The translations under genes were made by a program, and so were the position numbers. A DNA stretch of 40,168 nucleotides from Clostridiales bacterium (GTDB lineage: Bacteria > Bacillota > Sulfobacillia > Sulfobacillales > Sulfobacillaceae). Shown here in pieces: positions 7,674 through 16,064 of the stretch (its first letter is position 1; each line of letters opens with the position of its first letter). The notes below the pieces were generated by a model. That model was given only the letters and a program-made list of their open reading frames with translations. It searched no databases and was not told where the DNA came from. Location of the stretch: assembly GCA_027365485.1 (NCBI GenBank), contig DAHXNH010000051.1:1-40168 (forward strand). The letters are read 5' to 3'.

Positions 7674-9581
7674 GTGGCTGAGGAGCCAGAAGCCCATCCG
7701 CTCAAGGAGTCGGTTGCCCGTTTGACCACCCAGCCCGGAGTCTACCTGATGAAAGACGCGGCTGGGGTGGTCATTTACGTAGGCAAGGCCGTCAATCTGA
7801 AGAACCGGGTGAAGAACTATTTTCAAGATCCTGCCCGTTTAGCGCCCAAGGTGGCGGCGATGATGCGCCATGTGGCTGACTTCGAGGTGATTAGCACCGA
7901 TACCGAGGTGGAAGCGCTGATTTTAGAGGCGACATTAATCAAAGCCCGCCAGCCTCGCTATAATATTCGGCTCAAAGATGACAAGGCGTACCCGTATTTG
8001 CGTTTGACTTGGGAAGAACCATATCCTCGACTGTTGATTGCACGGCGGCGGGGTCAAGACAAGAGTCGCTATTTCGGGCCGTATACGCATGCCCAATCGG
8101 TTCATGACACCATTCGCCTTTTGCGCAGAATTTTCCCTATTCGCAATTGCAGCAATCAGAAATTCAAGAATCAATCCCGCCCCTGTTTGGAGCATTTTAT
8201 TGATCGCTGTCAGGCTCCCTGTCAAGCCATGGTCAGTGTCGAGGACTATCGGGCGATGATGCAGGAAGTGGAGTGGTTTTTGGAAGGCCGATCCGATGTC
8301 GTAGTGAAGGACTTGAAACAGAAACTAGAAGCGGCGGCCGAGCGTTTGGAATTCGAACGGGCGGCCCAACTAAGGGACCAAATCCGCGCGGTCGAGGAAA
8401 TTACCAGCCAGCAAAAGGTGTCATCCGAAGCTGGGCGCGAATTGGATGCCATTCATTGGGCGGTGGACGACCATGACGCATTTGTGCAGGTCTTTACGGT
8501 TCGCCAGGGTCAGCTGACCGGACGCGATGCGTTTACCCTCACGGGCATTGATCAGACCGATGAGGCGGAGTTGGCGCGGGCGTTTTTGCTGCAGTACTAC
8601 GGACAGGCGCGGGAGATCCCCCAAGAGCTATTGCTTCCGATAACTCCTGGGGATCACGATGGGCTGAAGGCGTGGCTGACTGAACTCAAGGGATCCCGGG
8701 TAAAAATCGAGGTGCCCCGCCGCGGTGAAAAGGAACGGCTGTTGGCCATGGTGGGAAAAAACGCTGAACTCTCTCGCGATGAGGCCCATCGTCGCATGCA
8801 AACCCGAGACCGTGATCGCGAGGAGGGATTGCTCGGATTGCAACACGCGCTAGGACTCGACAAAGCGCCGGAGCGTATGGAATGCTACGATATTTCGAAT
8901 ACCCAAGGGACCGAATCCGTGGCCTCGATGGTGGTGTTTACGGCTGGCCGACCGGACAAGAGTCAGTATCGCAAGTTCAAGATTCGGACGGTGGAAGGGG
9001 CGAATGACTTTGCCTCAATGGCCGAGGTGATCAGCCGTCGCTTTCGCCATGTGGAGGAGGCGACCGCAGCTCCGGGCAAGGCTCGATTTGCCACTCGACC
9101 TGACTTAATCATCATCGATGGGGGCAAGGGTCAACTGGGATATGCCGTTCGCGCGATGCGCGAGGCAGGATTTGGCGACATCCCGGTTTTCGGTTTAGCC
9201 AAGCGCTATGAATGGTTGTTCGAGCCTGACCGATCCGAGCCGATTATCTTGGACCGTGATTCGGGTGCGCTGAAGTTGGTTCAGCAAATTCGCGATGAGG
9301 CGCATCGATTTGCGATCACGTTTCACCGCGACCTGAGAACCAAGCGCAACTTGAAATCGCTCCTCGACGATATTCCAGAGATTGGTCCCAAGCGAAAGCG
9401 GCAGTTGGTGGCCCACTATGCGCGAACGGAAGATCTAGCGTCGGCCTCGGCGGAGGAGCTGGCCCAGTTGCCGGGGATGACCAGGAAAGCCGCCGAAAGT
9501 GTCCTCGACTACCTCAAGGACACACGTGGGTCAGACTCTGCCCGCACTGAGACCACGACCAAGGAGGAGGGTTTGCTATGA
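7674..9581 (+). CDS. uvrC: UvrABC excinuclease subunit C
   Basis: Nuclease that makes both incisions around a lesion held by UvrB. Domains in order: GIY-YIG nuclease (GVYLM at 22, IYVGK near 34) for the 3' cut, a Cys-containing region (CSNQ, CLEHFIDRCQAPC), a UVR domain near 205-240 (LEFERAAQLRDQI) that binds UvrB, the RNase H-like endonuclease core (ECYDISNTQG, IIDGGKGQL) for the 5' cut, and helix-hairpin-helix motifs at the end (IPEIGPKRKRQL, LPGMTRKAAE). Several GTG codons cluster here; 7674 lies 8 bases after AAGGAGG (7659-7665), with 7671 as the alternative. It is 635 residues. The stop overlaps the next start (ATGA). Confidence 0.97.
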   Translation: MAEEPEAHPLKESVARLTTQPGVYLMKDAAGVVIYVGKAVNLKNRVKNYFQDPARLAPKVAAMMRHVADFEVISTDTEVEALILEATLIKARQPRYNIRLKDDKAYPYLRLTWEEPYPRLLIARRRGQDKSRYFGPYTHAQSVHDTIRLLRRIFPIRNCSNQKFKNQSRPCLEHFIDRCQAPCQAMVSVEDYRAMMQEVEWFLEGRSDVVVKDLKQKLEAAAERLEFERAAQLRDQIRAVEEITSQQKVSSEAGRELDAIHWAVDDHDAFVQVFTVRQGQLTGRDAFTLTGIDQTDEAELARAFLLQYYGQAREIPQELLLPITPGDHDGLKAWLTELKGSRVKIEVPRRGEKERLLAMVGKNAELSRDEAHRRMQTRDRDREEGLLGLQHALGLDKAPERMECYDISNTQGTESVASMVVFTAGRPDKSQYRKFKIRTVEGANDFASMAEVISRRFRHVEEATAAPGKARFATRPDLIIIDGGKGQLGYAVRAMREAGFGDIPVFGLAKRYEWLFEPDRSEPIILDRDSGALKLVQQIRDEAHRFAITFHRDLRTKRNLKSLLDDIPEIGPKRKRQLVAHYARTEDLASASAEELAQLPGMTRKAAESVLDYLKDTRGSDSARTETTTKEEGLL

Positions 9582-9919
9582 TACGGGGGCTTTGGGTTTG
9601 GGCGATTACTGCCTTGGGACTCGCTGTCATTGCCCATCTTAACATCGGGATTCACGCGACGTCGGCGGTCAGTGTGATTATCGCGGCATTGGCGTTAGGG
9701 TTGCTGAACACGTTCATTCGCCCCATCTTGCGTTTAATTGCGATTCCGATTACCTTTTTGACGTTGGGTCTTTTTGGTTGGATTATTAATGGGCTCATGC
9801 TGTGGCTCGTGTCATGGCTGGTTCCTGGGTTTCATGTGGCGGGGTTTGTGGCGGCCGTCCTTGGTTCGATGATCTTAGCGATTATTTCGGGGGTGATGCA
9901 TTGGATGGTCAGACGATGA
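9578..9919 (+). CDS. Phage holin family 4 / YvlD-like four-helix membrane protein
   Basis: A 113-residue, almost wholly hydrophobic protein with four predicted membrane helices separated by very short loops. The segment LGLLNTFIRPILRLIAIPIT and the following LTLGLFGWIINGLMLW are characteristic of the phage_holin_4_2 / YvlD family. Despite the name, members on bacterial chromosomes are not lysis proteins, and their function is unclear; some are linked to envelope stress. It starts at ATG 9578, overlapping the uvrC stop by 4 bases, and overlaps the next gene by 4 bases, so it is probably co-translated with both. Confidence 0.85.
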   Translation: MIRGLWVWAITALGLAVIAHLNIGIHATSAVSVIIAALALGLLNTFIRPILRLIAIPITFLTLGLFGWIINGLMLWLVSWLVPGFHVAGFVAAVLGSMILAIISGVMHWMVRR

Positions 9920-10761
9920 TTCGCTTGGTTGCCCTCGATTTGGACGGGACCAGTCTTTGTCACGGGGGGGTGATTAGCCCAGGCCTTGGGGAGGCGGTGG
10001 CGCGGGCGCAATCGGAGGGAATTCGGGTGATTTTGGCCACTGGGCGCATGGCCCAGTCCGCCGACGTCTTTAGGCGGGCTTTAGGCGTATTACCGGGTCC
10101 GATGATTAGCTATAACGGGGCGGAAGTAGTCTCGATGCCGGAAAACGCGGTGTGGGTGCGCCATCCGGTGGACGAAAAGGCGGCGCGGGCGTTGGTGACT
10201 TTGGCCCTTACGCATAACATTTTGGTGCAAGTCTACGTCGCCGACGAACTCTGGGTGTCGCGGGATGCGGAACGCGTTCGCGACTACGTCAAAAATAATC
10301 ACGTGCCGGTGTCGGTGCGAGATCAAGAGGCACTTTTAGACTGGCCCGAACCCCCCGTAAAGATCTTATTGCAAGCGGAACCCGAGGTGGTCGATGGGTT
10401 TCGCCAAGTGGCGGAACGCCACATGGCCGATTATCCGGTGCGATTGTTCAAGTCGCAGTTGGACTATTTGGAGATGGTCGGGGAACAGGTCGGCAAAGGC
10501 CGAGCCTTGGCTGAAGTGGCAGCTCGACTCAAACTTTCGGCCAATCAAGTCATGGCCATCGGCGACAACGAAAATGACATGGACATGTTGGCCTGGGCGG
10601 GGTTGGGGATAGCCATGGGACAAAGTCACGATGACATCAAGGCGGTGTCGGACTTTGTGACCGCCAGCGTCGATGAAGGCGGAGCCGCAGAGGCCATGGG
10701 CCACTTCCTCTGGGGAGTGTCTAGCCCAAGGATCGAGGCGGGGGGCAAAGTGTTGCGCTAA
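9916..10761 (+). CDS. Cof-type HAD-superfamily phosphatase
   Basis: Haloacid dehalogenase-fold hydrolase of the Cof (IIB) subfamily, cytosolic, typically dephosphorylating sugar phosphates, nucleotides or cofactor intermediates. Motif I is DLDGTSL near residue 8, with the nucleophile and acid Asp separated by one residue. Motif II-like ILATGR follows, and motif IV is GDNENDMDML near 217. The central cap domain is the alpha/beta type IIB expected at this length (281 residues). The start ATG 9916 overlaps the previous stop (ATGA) and lies immediately before motif I, as usual. Substrate cannot be predicted from sequence. Confidence 0.9.
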   Translation: MIRLVALDLDGTSLCHGGVISPGLGEAVARAQSEGIRVILATGRMAQSADVFRRALGVLPGPMISYNGAEVVSMPENAVWVRHPVDEKAARALVTLALTHNILVQVYVADELWVSRDAERVRDYVKNNHVPVSVRDQEALLDWPEPPVKILLQAEPEVVDGFRQVAERHMADYPVRLFKSQLDYLEMVGEQVGKGRALAEVAARLKLSANQVMAIGDNENDMDMLAWAGLGIAMGQSHDDIKAVSDFVTASVDEGGAAEAMGHFLWGVSSPRIEAGGKVLR

Positions 10762-10981
10762 TGGCACCAGGCGGTTGGAGTCGGAAGCATAGAGCGGTCG
10801 CCGGCGGGAGGACGGCAGAGTGCGACTGCGACCGTTTCGCCGCTGCCGGTAGCTGGTTGGTAGGAAGTGTCCCTTGCGGTCGTCGTCTCACTTCGTGGTG
10901 AAAGGGTCTAAAGGGTCTTCAGATCGCCTCCGAGGTCGAGAAAAACAGAGAAAAACAGAGAAGGCAGGGAAGGGGAGCGAC
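10762..10981 (+). other. Leader region with short tandem repeats before the glycosidase-like gene
   Basis: 220 bases with no clear gene. Two perfect short tandem repeats stand out: AAAGGGTCT twice at 10901-10918 and AAAAACAGAG twice at 10941-10960. The reading frame of the next gene stays open back to TTG 10874, so some of this could be an N-terminal extension of 36 polar residues, but the ribosome binding site favours the ATG at 10982. No confident promoter was found. Confidence 0.4.
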
Positions 10982-12976
10982 ATGCCGGTGCCGGATGCAA
11001 TTTCGATTGCGCTCGAGGTTGGTGCCGATGACGTCAGGGTTCTCATCTTGACGCTTGCACCCGACGAGGACCACGCGGAGGCTCGGGCCGATGGTTGGCA
11101 CCTGCGAATCTCGGCGAAGGATGAGACGGTCGGAATCCGGGCGTTTCAAGTGCAGGTGACCCACGAAGGCTCTCATCCGCAGGATCTAGGCATCGTGGTC
11201 CGATGGGAATTTTGTTGCCGTCGACCGCCGGAGTGGATGATTCCAGGGATGTTTTATGGCGAAAACCGGACTCAGGAGAGCGCACGCTTATATCCACGGT
11301 TTGTTGCGGATCCGGGGGCAGCTCGGGATGATTGGAGTTCGAGCTACTGGGCTTTTCGTAGTGACCGGACGCCCCTTCCGGCCGTGATGGCTTGGACGTC
11401 CGAGCCTAGCCGCCAGGTAGGCTTGGCGACGCGGGCAGAGGTCCAAGGGGACTTGTCGGGAGTCGGGTTTGGGTTTGATCGAACGGTGGGTCAAGCCTGG
11501 ATCGGTCTCGATTTTCCCTATATCGAAGAGCCGGTGGCGTATACCACCAACGTGCGCGCGCCCTGCCGCGAGCGCTCCCAGTTTCATTTGGAGCCAGAAG
11601 AGACCGTGACCGTAAAATTTTGGAGTTTCATCGGCGAGTCGGATCCGCATAGCTACGACCCGTTTATCCGCTTCTTGTATCAACGCTTTCGTGCTGAGGC
11701 TCCACTCCATCCTTGGATGGGAATCGAAAAGGCGGCGGAACTCGGTGCCTACGGACTGTTTCGCTGGCATTACGATGCTGATGACCGAGCGCTTTACGAA
11801 ACCATCGCTTTTGATCGGGAAGGGTATGATGGGGATCGCCGCCATATGCACGTTGGCTGGGTAAGCGGGGTGCCACACGCCTATGCCCTGTTGGCGCACG
11901 GATATCGGGTGGGCAAAAAGGAGTATGTGAACGCGGCCCGAGCGGTGATCGATCACATTGTCGAGGCCACGGCCCCCGCTGGTATTTTATGGGGCGAATG
12001 GAGGAAAGAGACCGGGTTTGGGCCGGGATGGACCAACCAGCCCGGAGCCATTCATACGCGCACCATTGGGGAAGCTCTCTGGTTTTTACTGCGCGCACTA
12101 GAACTTGAAGAAGCCCACGGCCTCCTCCATCCTCGATGGGAAGCGGTGGGCTTAGCGCATCTTCAGTATCTGGCCAAGATTCAGCGTGCCGACGGGAGTT
12201 TAGGCACCTATTACGATAGCGACGATGCGCAGGGCAAAGTCTTGCGCTGGGAAGGATCGGGAGGGCTGATCTGGATTCCCTTTTTGTTGTTGGCGGCCAG
12301 ACGCTGGGCCGAATCAGAGTGGATGGACCGGGCTATTGCAGCCGGGCGCTATTATGAGCGCTCAGTCCGCGCCGGCTACCTTTTCGGAGCGCCCGAAGAC
12401 GTGGACATGAGCCCTACCTCCGAGGATGGATACAATGCCATCATCGCCTACGTGCACCTGTATGAAGGACAGTGCGGCCAAGAAGAGTTGTGGTTGGATT
12501 TGGCCAAATTGAGCGCCAATTGGACGATGACGTTTCGGTTTGCCGAAAATCTTCGCTTCTCCTCAGAAACGCGCCTCGGAGCCTACGATTTTCGCACGCG
12601 AGGAGCCGATTTGGCGTCTCGCGCTAACAATCATCTGCATAGCTATGGCCTTATCGCCTTGCCCGAGATGCTGCGACTGGCCGAGTACGCGAACGATGAT
12701 TACTATCGGCAAAGAACTCAAGACAACTTAGCCTGTTTTTTGCAGATGATTGCGCGCCAGGATGGGGATTTTAATGCCCAACGAGGGATGGTCAGTGAGC
12801 GTTATTATCAGACCGATTGGGCTCAGGCCAAAGGCAAACTCTTAGGGCTGTCCCACGCTTGGTGCATCGGCTTATTGCTCTATGCCTGCGAACATCTCCT
12901 GGACCAAGGCATCGAACTGGTGGCTCAGGATGGCGCTTGCATCGCATCGTGCCTAAACGATCCCGGTTTTAGGTAG
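10982..12976 (+). CDS. Uncharacterised protein, probable six-hairpin (alpha/alpha-barrel) glycosidase fold
   Basis: I do not recognise a named family. The 664-residue protein starts at ATG 10982, 4 bases after an AAGGGGAG run. Residues 1-240 look beta-rich with many Trp and Tyr, like the beta-sandwich of many glycoside hydrolases. Residues 245-640 form successive helical pairs with acidic and aromatic loop residues: HVGWVSGVPHAYALL (290-304), GAIHTRTIGEALWFLL (355-370), ADGSLGTYYDSDD (403-415), TSEDGYNAIIAYV (479-491) and AQAKGKLLGLSHAW (614-627). This pattern fits six-hairpin glycosidases such as glucuronyl hydrolases or lyase-like enzymes. There is no signal peptide or membrane helix, so it is probably cytosolic. 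It stands alone with no sugar transporter nearby. Function is inference only; a structural search would decide. Confidence 0.6.
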   Translation: MPVPDAISIALEVGADDVRVLILTLAPDEDHAEARADGWHLRISAKDETVGIRAFQVQVTHEGSHPQDLGIVVRWEFCCRRPPEWMIPGMFYGENRTQESARLYPRFVADPGAARDDWSSSYWAFRSDRTPLPAVMAWTSEPSRQVGLATRAEVQGDLSGVGFGFDRTVGQAWIGLDFPYIEEPVAYTTNVRAPCRERSQFHLEPEETVTVKFWSFIGESDPHSYDPFIRFLYQRFRAEAPLHPWMGIEKAAELGAYGLFRWHYDADDRALYETIAFDREGYDGDRRHMHVGWVSGVPHAYALLAHGYRVGKKEYVNAARAVIDHIVEATAPAGILWGEWRKETGFGPGWTNQPGAIHTRTIGEALWFLLRALELEEAHGLLHPRWEAVGLAHLQYLAKIQRADGSLGTYYDSDDAQGKVLRWEGSGGLIWIPFLLLAARRWAESEWMDRAIAAGRYYERSVRAGYLFGAPEDVDMSPTSEDGYNAIIAYVHLYEGQCGQEELWLDLAKLSANWTMTFRFAENLRFSSETRLGAYDFRTRGADLASRANNHLHSYGLIALPEMLRLAEYANDDYYRQRTQDNLACFLQMIARQDGDFNAQRGMVSERYYQTDWAQAKGKLLGLSHAWCIGLLLYACEHLLDQGIELVAQDGACIASCLNDPGFR

Positions 12977-13398
12977 GCCCTGATTTAAGCCTACAGTCGG
13001 TAAAGGAAGGCGGTCGCCCTACCTGAGCGCCTATCGGGTGACGACCGATCACAGGGGCTCATCCGCCAGTTCCGAAAGGTGGAGCCTCGTGGTAGCGGCG
13101 GGGTGCGGCGGATAGTCGTCGGAGCCAGGCGCTATGACCTCGAAGTCATTCTCGACGAATCCTATATCGGCTGACCATAAAATGACAATGAACAGGCAGT
13201 GCCGGGGGTGGCACCCTACGGAATAATCCCGATTGCGGATGGAGTCACCTGGGTCGAGGTGTGCCTCCAAGCGCAGGGCGCGAAAGCAGAAGTCGTATTG
13301 CCAAAGACTTTACGGAGCCAATTCCACTGGCCGTGTGGCTAGAGGCCGCCAGCGAAGAGCCGGTATCATCGGCAGGGCGAATCCCACCACCTGGCCAA
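12977..13398. pseudogene. Intergenic region with possible gene remnant
   Basis: About 420 bases without an intact gene. On the plus strand the same frame reads from 13004 to a stop at 13172-13174, then, after a second stop at 13178-13180, on to 13345. The two pieces (for example SQGLIRQFRKVEP, then VAPYGIIPIADGVTWVEV) look protein-like although no start or ribosome binding site is seen. This may be a decayed gene interrupted by stops, or chance. A reverse-strand frame (13049-13270) is also open but begins at TTG without a binding site. No known family was recognised. Confidence 0.25.
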
Positions 13399-13611
13399 TT
13401 ACAGGTGGGGAATGAGGTGGGCGACAGGGCTTCGTAGCACTAAATAGACGACCGTAAAAATAATGATGACAAAAAATATGACGGCAAAGATAGTTTCGGT
13501 TTGATGCTCTCGCTTCGCCCGATCGCGTTCTTGGCGAGACGGCCGACCCTCGGTTGACGGAGTCTGCCGACGATTGCTGCGCGGGTAGTCTGGGGGATGG
13601 GTGGCGGCCAT
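13399..13611 (-). CDS. Small single-pass membrane protein
   Basis: A 70-residue protein read on the reverse strand. The ATG at 13611 is preceded 7 bases earlier by AGGAGG, a strong ribosome binding site; an alternative ATG at 13617 is too close to it. Residues 1-40 are polar and rich in Arg, Pro and Gln (RPSRQERDRAKREHQ), followed by one hydrophobic helix (IFAVIFFVIIIFTVVYLVL) and a short tail. This fits a tail-anchored membrane peptide with a positively charged cytoplasmic part. No family is recognised. It is the only reverse-strand gene between ftsE and ubiB and would be transcribed divergently from rapZ. Confidence 0.55.
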   Translation of the reverse strand: MAATHPPDYPRSNRRQTPSTEGRPSRQERDRAKREHQTETIFAVIFFVIIIFTVVYLVLRSPVAHLIPHL

Positions 13612-13732
13612 AATCATACCTCCTGAGTCTTGGATTAGAATGCAATGATACCGTCTTTCACCCTATTTTACACTACGGGTCGAAGTTCGAGTATGGATCC
13701 CGTCGGCAGAAAATGAAAAAAGGCCGCGAACG

Positions 13733-13765
13733 GGCTTGAATGGAGGCATGCGGTCCATTCAAGCC
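13733..13765. repeat. Perfect 12-bp inverted repeat (hairpin) upstream of rapZ
   Basis: Arms GGCTTGAATGGA (13733-13744) and TCCATTCAAGCC (13754-13765) are exact reverse complements separated by 9 bases. Read on the reverse strand, the hairpin is followed after 11-12 bases by a run of six T (the plus-strand A run at 13715-13721). It could therefore be a reverse-strand terminator, the end of a small RNA, or an operator between rapZ and the small membrane protein. Confidence 0.6.
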
Positions 13766-13850
13766 GATCTGAAGGCACGCTGCGAGGCATAGAACGGGTG
13801 GCGATTTCAGAGCCGTCCTTAGATCCCGATCATGCGTCCTGACGACAGAC

Positions 13851-13859
13851 TGGTATGAT
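13851..13859 (+). promoter_or_regulatory. Candidate extended -10 promoter for rapZ
   Basis: TGG followed by TATGAT (13854-13859) forms an extended -10 with no good -35 at the usual distance. Transcription would begin near 13866, some 35 bases before the rapZ start, and pass through the strong ribosome binding site TAAGGAGG (13884-13891). Confidence 0.45.
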
Positions 13860-13900
13860 GAGATCACAAGATAGGGAAAGCTCTAAGGAGGGTTGAGATC

Positions 13901-14761
13901 ATGTGCCGTTTGGTCATCATCACCGGACTGTCGGGAGCTGGACGCACCGAAGCCATGCGCGTATTTGAAGACCTGGGATATTTTTGCGTGGATAACTTGC
14001 CTCCGGAGTTGGTCCCTAAGTTTGCCGAACTGATTCAGAAGGGACCCGAGGTTCGAGGCGCCGCCTTGGTGATCGATATGCGTGGGGAAGCCTTTTTCGG
14101 AGATTGGCAGTCAAGTTTGGAGGCGCTGACCTCAGAGAACGTGTTGCACCAGACTCTCTTTTTAGAAGCCGATGAAGAGACCTTGATTCATCGCTATCAA
14201 CTCTCCCGGCGGCGTCATCCCCTGGAGACTGAAAATTTGGGATTGGTCGAGGCCATTCGCCATGAGCGCCGGGCCATGATGGATATTCGAGGTAAGGCCG
14301 ACGTGGTCATTGACACCTCCAATTTGACGGCTCGGCAGCTGAGCCGGCGGATTACCGAGGTGTTTCGGTTGGATCAAGTAGAAAGCGGCTTGCGCCTGCG
14401 CATCGTCTCATTTGGTTTTAAGCATGGCTTGCCCAAGGACTCGGATCTGGTGTTGGACGTCCGGTTTATTCCCAATCCGCATTACGTCGAAGCCTTGCGA
14501 GAAAAAAACGGCAATGATGTCGAAGTGGAACGGTTCGTCTTCAGTTCGGCGGTGGCCTTGGAAACTCTCTCGCGGTTCATCGATCTCATCGATTATCTGA
14601 TTCCTCAATATCAACAAGAAGGCAAACCACAAGTCACCGTCGCCGTCGGCTGCACCGGAGGCCAGCATCGTTCGGTGGTCTTTGCCAATCATTTGGCTAA
14701 ACACCTGGAGGAATTAGGCCTCAGAGTCTCCTTGGAGCATCGTGATGTCGAGCGAACCTAA
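13901..14761 (+). CDS. rapZ: RNase adapter / nucleotide-binding protein RapZ (YvcJ)
   Basis: P-loop nucleotide-binding protein of the RapZ/YvcJ family, 286 residues, usual length. Walker A GLSGAGRT lies at 9-16, the DLGYFCVDNLPPELVP signature follows, and the C-terminal domain carries VGCTGGQHRSV near 247-257. In Escherichia coli RapZ presents small RNAs to RNase E to control glmS; in Bacillus subtilis YvcJ binds GTP and affects competence. The ATG is 8 bases after AAGGAGGG. It is the first gene of the conserved rapZ-yvcK-whiA cluster and overlaps yvcK by 17 bases. Whether the enteric RNA role applies in this organism is unknown. Confidence 0.96.
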   Translation: MCRLVIITGLSGAGRTEAMRVFEDLGYFCVDNLPPELVPKFAELIQKGPEVRGAALVIDMRGEAFFGDWQSSLEALTSENVLHQTLFLEADEETLIHRYQLSRRRHPLETENLGLVEAIRHERRAMMDIRGKADVVIDTSNLTARQLSRRITEVFRLDQVESGLRLRIVSFGFKHGLPKDSDLVLDVRFIPNPHYVEALREKNGNDVEVERFVFSSAVALETLSRFIDLIDYLIPQYQQEGKPQVTVAVGCTGGQHRSVVFANHLAKHLEELGLRVSLEHRDVERT

Positions 14762-16064
14762 AGAGAAAAGGCGCAGCAGCATTCGCCGTCTCTTGTATCC
14801 TGGAGTCCGGGTCAAACGCTACCTAGCGGTGGTGGCGTTAGGATTCTTTTTGCTTGGATTTGCCGTGGGCGTCGCTGCCGCCACCCATCGCGTGCGCTTC
14901 GTGGTTCGCCATCAGTTGATCTTTAGCGGCGTCGTTGCGTTGGGTATTGCGTTGGTCGTGTTTGGGGCATGGGAACTGTGGCGATCGGTCAATGAGGGGA
15001 TTGGATCCAGCCGTTGGACGGCAAGATTTTACTCCCGACACTTGGCGCGCGGCCCAAAAGTGGTGGCCATGGGTGGCGGGACCGGGCTTCCCGCCGTGCT
15101 CCGAGGGTTGAAAAACTACACCGGAAACTTGACCGCGGTGGTTACGGTGGCGGACAACGGGGGCAGTTCAGGACGGCTTCGGGGGGCGTTGGGGATTTTA
15201 CCGCCAGGGGACATTCGCAACTGCATGGTGGCCTTAGCCGACACCGAGCCGTTGATGGAGCGCCTCTTTCAGTATCGCTTTGAAGGTGGGGAACTGGCCG
15301 GACATTCTTTCGGCAACTTGTTCCTGGCGGCAATGGAAGAAGCAGCCGGTGACTTTGTGAGCGGACTGCGGGCATCGAGCCATGTCCTGGCGGTGCGGGG
15401 CCGGGTGCTTCCGGCCACGTTGGATCAAGTGGAACTGAGCGCGGAACTCGACGATGGCCAGGTGGTGGTGGGGGAAAGCCAGATCGGAGACAGTTCGGCG
15501 CGCATTCGACGCGTCTGGATGAATCCTGCGGACGCTCGTCCCTTGCCCGAGACTATCGAGGCCATAAAGAGCGCGGACTTGATTGTGTTGGGACCGGGAA
15601 GCCTCTATACCTCGGTCATTCCTAATTTACTGGTTCAGGAAGTGGTCGAAGAGATTCATCGCAGTCGCGCACTCGTAGTGTATGTGGCCAACGTGATGAC
15701 GCAACCGGGAGAAACTAGCCATTTCAGCGTAGAGGATCATGTCGAGGCGATTACTCGCATCTTGGGCAAAAATGTGGTGGACGTGGTCTTGGTGAATAAT
15801 CGCGCCGTACCCCCGGAGATTGCTAGCCGTTATTCCGAAGAGGGAGCGGAGCCCGTCGTCATCAGGGATCCGGGCAAGATTTCAGGCAAGACAAGGATTG
15901 TCGCAGAGGACTTGCTGCTCGAGGATGCGGTGGCTCGCCATGATCCAGAAAAACTGGCCAAGAGCCTGTTGAAGACACTGAATCGATTTTATCCAGAGTG
16001 GGCCGAGGGCCATTTCTTCGATTCTCTTTGGCTGGATTCGCGCTTGCGAGAGCGAAAGTCGTGA
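14745..16064 (+). CDS. yvcK: YvcK/GlmR family gluconeogenesis and cell-wall precursor regulator, membrane-anchored form
   Basis: CofD-like protein of the YvcK (GlmR, CuvA) family, needed in Firmicutes for wall synthesis during growth on gluconeogenic carbon. In B. subtilis it stimulates GlmS and binds UDP-GlcNAc, and in Listeria the homologue binds c-di-AMP. The core starts near residue 104 with VVAMGGGTG (107-115) and VADNGGSSGRLR (135-146). Unlike the soluble B. subtilis protein, the first 100 residues hold two membrane helices (about 27-47 and 58-78) after a basic start, so this form is probably tethered to the membrane. ATG 14745 follows TGGAG; GTG 14742 is an alternative. It is 439 residues and overlaps rapZ and whiA. 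Confidence 0.94.
   Translation: MSSEPKEKRRSSIRRLLYPGVRVKRYLAVVALGFFLLGFAVGVAAATHRVRFVVRHQLIFSGVVALGIALVVFGAWELWRSVNEGIGSSRWTARFYSRHLARGPKVVAMGGGTGLPAVLRGLKNYTGNLTAVVTVADNGGSSGRLRGALGILPPGDIRNCMVALADTEPLMERLFQYRFEGGELAGHSFGNLFLAAMEEAAGDFVSGLRASSHVLAVRGRVLPATLDQVELSAELDDGQVVVGESQIGDSSARIRRVWMNPADARPLPETIEAIKSADLIVLGPGSLYTSVIPNLLVQEVVEEIHRSRALVVYVANVMTQPGETSHFSVEDHVEAITRILGKNVVDVVLVNNRAVPPEIASRYSEEGAEPVVIRDPGKISGKTRIVAEDLLLEDAVARHDPEKLAKSLLKTLNRFYPEWAEGHFFDSLWLDSRLRERKS

Follow-up and report, generated by a model that had tools for sequence, protein, structure and literature searches.

Within the window, that is, the whole stretch of 40,168 nucleotides from a Sulfobacillaceae genome that was analysed here, a single gene of unassigned function stands in a block of housekeeping genes, which raises the question of what its product does and to which family it belongs. 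The gene, whose 664-residue product a first-pass annotation had singled out, was confirmed upon inspection of the open reading frames to be one uninterrupted frame (664 codons plus stop; Table 1), and its ATG is favoured over an upstream TTG at 10874 because of the preceding AAGGGGAG and because homologues start near the ATG. Relative to the nearest relative (G001), dN/dS amounts to 0.35 for residues 1-363 and to 0.18 from residue 387 onward, for comparison with 0.16 for the neighbouring HAD gene; between the copies of G015 and G007 it is 0.13, and dS was saturated in the G000-G010 and G010-G015 pairs. The frame is thus real and under purifying selection, and not a chance ORF.

Table 1. Features of the window discussed in the text, with their positions and the evidence for each.
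Feature	Position	Strand	Evidence
Family gene	10982..12976	+	664 aa plus stop; open frame, homologues, dN/dS well under 1
Shine-Dalgarno-like AAGGGGAG	10970..10977	+	4 nt 5' of ATG; read from sequence
N-terminal region, residues 1-240, plausibly beta-rich	10982..11701	+	Alignments A6, A14; beta character from low-confidence model only
C-terminal region, residues 243-650, putative alpha/alpha barrel	11708..12931	+	GH127 Pfam matches, hhalign, PDB toroids
Motif GAPEDVDMSPTSEDGYNA (residues 469-486), holding the candidate catalytic acids D473 and E481	12386..12439	+	A6, A14
H551, candidate active-site residue	12632..12634	+	12/13 rows of A6
E606, candidate catalytic acid or base	12797..12799	+	12/13 rows of A6
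HAD-IIB (Cof-type) hydrolase, part of the conserved uvrC-holin-HAD-rapZ block	9919..10761	+	PF08282 E 2.3e-51; synteny
Gene taken to be rapZ, other border	13901..14761	+	Synteny

The protein itself remained without a match in Pfam, NCBIfam, and the PDB at E <= 10, in keeping with the earlier view that its family cannot be named, and a search of the literature by text (not by sequence) found no description of the family. A signal peptide, likewise said to be lacking, was not seen either, as a simple hydropathy scan revealed no signal-peptide-like hydrophobic N-terminus, and the core family members are leaderless as well. The family thus has no name in the Pfam, NCBIfam, or PDB collections searched, and its sequence relationships suggest a known kind of enzyme.

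Five of the 61 relatives searched carry the gene, the own genome included (G000, G001, G007, G010, and G015). A four-row profile matched nine of the 154 genomes of the class, namely these five, G518 and G521 (both at E ~1e-207), and two weak, partial cases; in a sample of the phylum, matches were found in six of 398 genomes, five of them weak and the sixth being the own genome. Two of 72,556 plasmid records gave a match, namely to proteins of Nonomuraea gerenzanensis (42 % identity over residues 50-640) and Segatella hominis (21 %). A viral origin of the gene was considered and rejected, with no relatives among phage records and no confirmed relative in three scans of viral_contigs. The core family (40-64 % identity) is found in the close relatives, in one other family of the same class, and in a single actinomycete; when aligned with the window protein, its members are 40-63 % identical to it. 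The nearest relative with a name is the Bacillota MAG FK_Sedi_B_Bin.94. Distant relatives, all of them unnamed and related over most of the length, occur in Bacteroidota, Alteromonadales, Deinococcus, and Bacillota. In profile-profile comparisons, the core was connected with a Segatella/Bacteroides/Catenovulum group (probability 99.5, E 4.5e-23, 475 columns), a G505/G508/Deinococcus group (99.7, E 6.3e-26, 579 columns), a G224/G195/G122 group (98.2, E 3.8e-14, 508 columns), and L031, a distant paralogue of 752 aa on contig 93 of the own genome, in a frame of 764 codons (97.4, E 9.3e-12, 275 columns). Control alignments against the core gave probabilities of 0.2 for sulfatases (E 0.34), 0.1 for GH2 (E 0.53), and 0.1 for a presumed membrane protein of the window (E 0.61). 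At its own locus (L031:3181-7385), the paralogue matches GH127 and GH76 models and is followed by a sulfatase-like gene with a Cys-type motif.

As to the fold, a helical-hairpin barrel had been proposed from the letters of the window protein, and the profiles of its relatives partly bear this out. The GH127 catalytic model PF07944 was matched by four of the six core members, the best of them at 27.2 bits vs. a cut-off of 24.9; this sole member above the cut-off is a relative with 46 % identity, and the window protein gave no match. When the 16-row family alignment was compared by hhalign with a GH127 alignment from the same genomes, a probability of 93 resulted (E 2.9e-7, 115 columns), with values of 68-93 across the family alignments; the controls were negative, at 0.1-0.2 (E 0.34-0.61). 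In the PDB, the 16-row profile found GH76 mannanases (E 1.8e-6), LanC (1.4e-5), and the GH105 protein YteR (1.2e-3). The core-only profile found no toroid above noise in the PDB, its best matches being 9m3b DgpC1 (E 0.0053, in the N-terminal half) and 7tkv (E 0.13), and the Pfam models of GH76, GH88/GH105, and AGE did not match the window protein and gave weak single matches in relatives only. AlphaFold, supplied with the window protein and two fragment rows only, reached a pLDDT of 33.9 for the full length and 35.9 for the barrel part alone. Taken from the profiles, an alpha/alpha toroid is likely, with the restriction that the matches to known toroids (GH76, GH127, GH105, and LanC) are confined to about residues 325-520 and do not cover the whole barrel. 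The beta-rich N-terminal domain of the first-pass annotation was not substantiated to the same degree: with its beta character coming from the low-confidence model, it is only plausible.

A barrel of this type could conceivably also serve a phosphorylase or a sugar isomerase or epimerase. GH65/GH94-type phosphorylases have a beta domain followed by the barrel, and one single family member matched the GlcNAc 2-epimerase model (PF07221, E 0.0043). However, hhalign against the AGE epimerase family, another toroid, yielded a mere probability of 13 (E 0.002), and no Pfam match to GH65 or GH94 was obtained, so that we regard such an activity as quite improbable.

Two alignments were used to search for residues that might form an active site, A6 with 13 rows including L031 and A14 with 16 rows without it. 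E182 and E481 are invariant throughout A6 (13/13 rows), and D473, H551, and E606 are each found in 12 of the 13 rows, the exception always being L031. In A14, D473 and E481 never vary, and H551 and E606 hardly do; the conserved Asp and Glu residues that had been anticipated in homologues do exist, accompanied by a histidine. Y92, N95, R129, and E182 of the N-terminal region are invariant or near-invariant in A6 and A14. Judging from this conservation, E481, D473, H551, and E606 are candidate catalytic or active-site residues.

Further information on function comes from the surroundings of the gene in other genomes. In G015 and G007, it lies between a gene for a hydrolase of the alkaline phosphatase (AP) superfamily, with an ATGA stop/start overlap, and a GH78 gene. 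GH2 is encoded immediately upstream in G521 and G518, the former additionally having GH38 and sugar ABC permease genes nearby, and in Nonomuraea the upstream GH38 gene overlaps the family gene by GTGA, with GH84 and ROK genes in the vicinity. The Segatella, Bacteroides, and Catenovulum relatives are found amid GH43, GH2, GH88, GH130, and TonB/SusD (SusC/D) genes, each locus with its own subset. The earlier remark that sugar-related neighbours are lacking consequently applies to the window copy, whereas other genomes place the gene in sugar loci. The context differs between lineages, and therefore no single substrate is implied. The AP-superfamily neighbour of G015 and G007 was also considered as a sulfatase; this was rejected, as it has Thr at the site where we take the formylglycine sulfatase motif to require Cys or Ser, and the same Thr is present in the copies of this protein in G000, G001, G004, and G010 (L027:1423-2850 in G015). 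A gene that appears Uma2-like by eye lies 3' of the family gene in G010 (L028:11634-12185) and G518 (L030:8753-9343).

The main rival to a hydrolase is a lyase or dehydratase that acts on uronic acid or related residues of oligosaccharides and prepares them for another enzyme. A precedent exists in GH154, which had been filed as a glycosidase family before members were shown, according to an excerpt of PMC12269599, to act as uronate dehydratases together with GH88. A GH88 gene is indeed located directly before the distant B. finegoldii member, and an exopolygalacturonate lyase in the PDB is matched by both the A6 (E 1.4e-6) and A14 (E 8e-4) profiles. However, neither GH88 nor GH105 was found among the scanned neighbours of core members, which are part of all neighbours, and none of the PDB matches was recognised as a GH154 chain. 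We consider this reading unlikely, yet worth keeping in mind.

The preferred reading, to which we assign a probability of roughly 0.6, is that of an enzyme which processes glycans in the cytoplasm and is most likely a glycoside hydrolase with exo action, from a six-hairpin (alpha/alpha barrel) family that is as yet undescribed and has a presumable N-terminal beta domain. Such an enzyme would act on oligosaccharides or glycosides after their import, by exo-hydrolysis in the cytoplasm. E481 and D473, on one barrel loop, are the candidate catalytic groups; E606 and H551 may reside on later barrel loops, and E182 and N95 from the N-terminal domain might close the pocket. By analogy with known six-hairpin families in which a beta domain precedes the barrel, an inverting mechanism may be guessed for the present family. 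The new intracellular carbohydrate-active alpha/alpha-barrel family envisaged by the first-pass annotation is upheld in part, as regards the lack of a curated model, the toroid profiles, the leaderless core, and the sugar loci, and is qualified by the low-confidence models, by the partial coverage of the barrel, by a beta domain that is only plausible, and by a chemistry that we infer; the searches that were run produced neither a confident match to a characterised family nor a different fold.

A more specific role is hinted at by G015 and G007, where the gene is embedded in a sulfosugar-type module. In varying completeness, this module comprises an SftI-like sulfoquinovose isomerase, a class II aldolase, an FGGY kinase, and Gfo/Idh/MocA and IolE-like proteins; it spans L027:360-14767 in G015 and is also present in G007 (L026), G000 (L092), G010 (L093), G004 (L094), and G001 (L095). 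The modules of G015 and G007 additionally hold SuyAB/SlcC/ComC-like genes. The SftI-like isomerase of G015 matches NF048012 at E 1.2e-93 (314 bits vs. a cut-off of 700), and the best model for its Ldh_2 enzyme is that of L-sulfolactate dehydrogenase (266 bits vs. a cut-off of 500); the same locus encodes, besides the class II aldolase and the FGGY kinase, a GD_AH dehydratase-type subunit and a D-2-hydroxyacid dehydrogenase, with a small SAF subunit recognised in G007. All three key module proteins stay below their equivalog cut-offs. Overall, the G015 locus resembles the sulfo-EMP2 and SlcC/ComC/SuyAB schemes as outlined in excerpts of PMC12890257 and PMC12421959. These two loci point to a possible mineralisation of a sulfonated sugar by some of these Bacillota, with the family gene inside the locus. 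In the own genome, the isomerase-aldolase-kinase module is located on another contig, with the AP hydrolase and without the family gene.

Strong isomerase matches (E < 1e-100) occur in eight of the 61 relatives (ten at E <= 0.001, the weak matches in G044 and G003 being left out of the strong count), and all five genomes with the family gene are among these eight. The formal chance of this is 9.4e-6 when genomes are counted and 0.0017 when genera are counted, in a test that was prompted by G015 and G007; with both left out, the values calculated by hand are about 6e-4 for genomes and 0.01 for genera. The co-occurrence arises in part because the genomes are near relatives. In G004 and G013, the module is present and the family gene missing; G518 and G521 possess the family gene but no isomerase. 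The GD_AH large subunit was found at an identity of at least 76 % in six of eight genomes tested and is absent from G010 and G026. GH31 genes (of any subtype) are present in all eight genomes tested, which precludes an argument from absence for a missing glycosidase. For the Gfo/Idh/MocA neighbour, the best PDB match is the generic dehydrogenase 3ezy, followed by 8qc3 (E 6.6e-15), presumably SqgA, and membership in GH188 is one possibility. Many sulfoquinovose clusters lack a classical sulfoquinovosidase, and GH188 fills the gap in many of these, as stated in an excerpt of PMC10755693. The family might then be the missing glycosidase of the sulfosugar pathway in these Bacillota, for instance a sulfoquinovosidase of a third type in addition to GH31 and the NAD-dependent GH188, whose product would enter the module through the SftI-like isomerase, the class II aldolase, and the FGGY kinase and pass to the SuyAB/SlcC/ComC-like sulfolactate genes; we deem this quite improbable.

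The window copy itself is an orphan without a sugar-related neighbour. It is preceded by uvrC, a gene for a holin-like membrane protein, and the HAD hydrolase gene, and followed by rapZ, which starts about 3.1 kb 3' of the HAD gene. Of 27 relative loci that lack the family gene, 16 (G007 and G015 included) have rapZ within 365-709 bp of the HAD gene; the remaining eleven show no rapZ within the stretch covered. G000, G001, and G010 all have the family gene immediately after the HAD gene. No mobile-element borders were seen at the window gene, with no long terminal repeats, no tRNA in the window, and no Rfam match in 9000-15000. The HAD-IIB hydrolase (9919-10761) could be a sugar phosphatase, but the block to which it belongs is also conserved where the family gene is absent.

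Conceivably, the copy in the window is a decaying leftover without current function, whatever the role of its ancestor. It stands alone among housekeeping genes and is absent from most relatives, and the copy of the nearest relative, G001, is split by an insertion and also carries a 1-nt insertion: its homology ends after residue 363, where the frame runs on into DNA that starts with a MerR-type helix-turn-helix (PF00376, E 5.1e-18), and the rest lies on a second contig that opens with foreign sequence and has one extra base (a frameshift) further on. The interruption, of which part of the element was seen, fits an IS607-like insertion. At the break sites (L003:8747-8960 and L002:1-68), no target duplication is found, and IS607 elements are described without target duplications in an excerpt of PMC6188088. 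Against decay, however, the window copy has an unbroken frame and a good ribosome site, its motifs are conserved, and dN/dS stays below 0.4, which makes this explanation improbable. Under the hydrolase reading, the family gene would have left, or never joined, a sugar locus in this genome, and now stands alone between the HAD gene and rapZ. If the hydrolase reading is correct, a family without a curated model acquires a likely fold, candidates for its catalytic residues, and genomic contexts of several independent kinds, which would render "hypothetical proteins" of gut and marine polysaccharide loci testable.

Among known systems, GH127 (PF07944) and the six-hairpin group are similar in part of the barrel, as recognised for four of six core members with one above the cut-off. 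In contrast, only about residues 325-520 align, the window protein itself is unmatched, and the barrel is C-terminal in the family. GH127 moreover has a conserved Cys pair (C424 and C425 of the GH127 alignment), which we take to be the conserved active-site cysteines, whereas no invariant Cys exists in A6 or A14. GH76 alpha-1,6-mannanases are the top PDB match of the wide family profile; the match, however, covers about 80 residues, the best four GH76 chains are shorter (341-362 aa), and core members have no GH76 Pfam match. GH154 offers the parallel of a carbohydrate-locus enzyme initially taken for a glycosidase, the family having been proposed to consist of uronate dehydratases once this activity had been shown for two members (excerpt of PMC12269599), but no similarity was recognised in the PDB searches, which ran on sequences and profiles rather than on family names. 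Finally, the polysaccharide utilisation locus (PUL) proteins of Segatella (WP_218456581.1) and Catenovulum (WP_268076505.1) differ in their identity of about 20 %, their signal-peptide-like N-termini, and their setting in TonB/SusD loci, where they are annotated as hypothetical, yet they are related to the core over 475 columns, and the Segatella row has D473, E481, H551, and E606.
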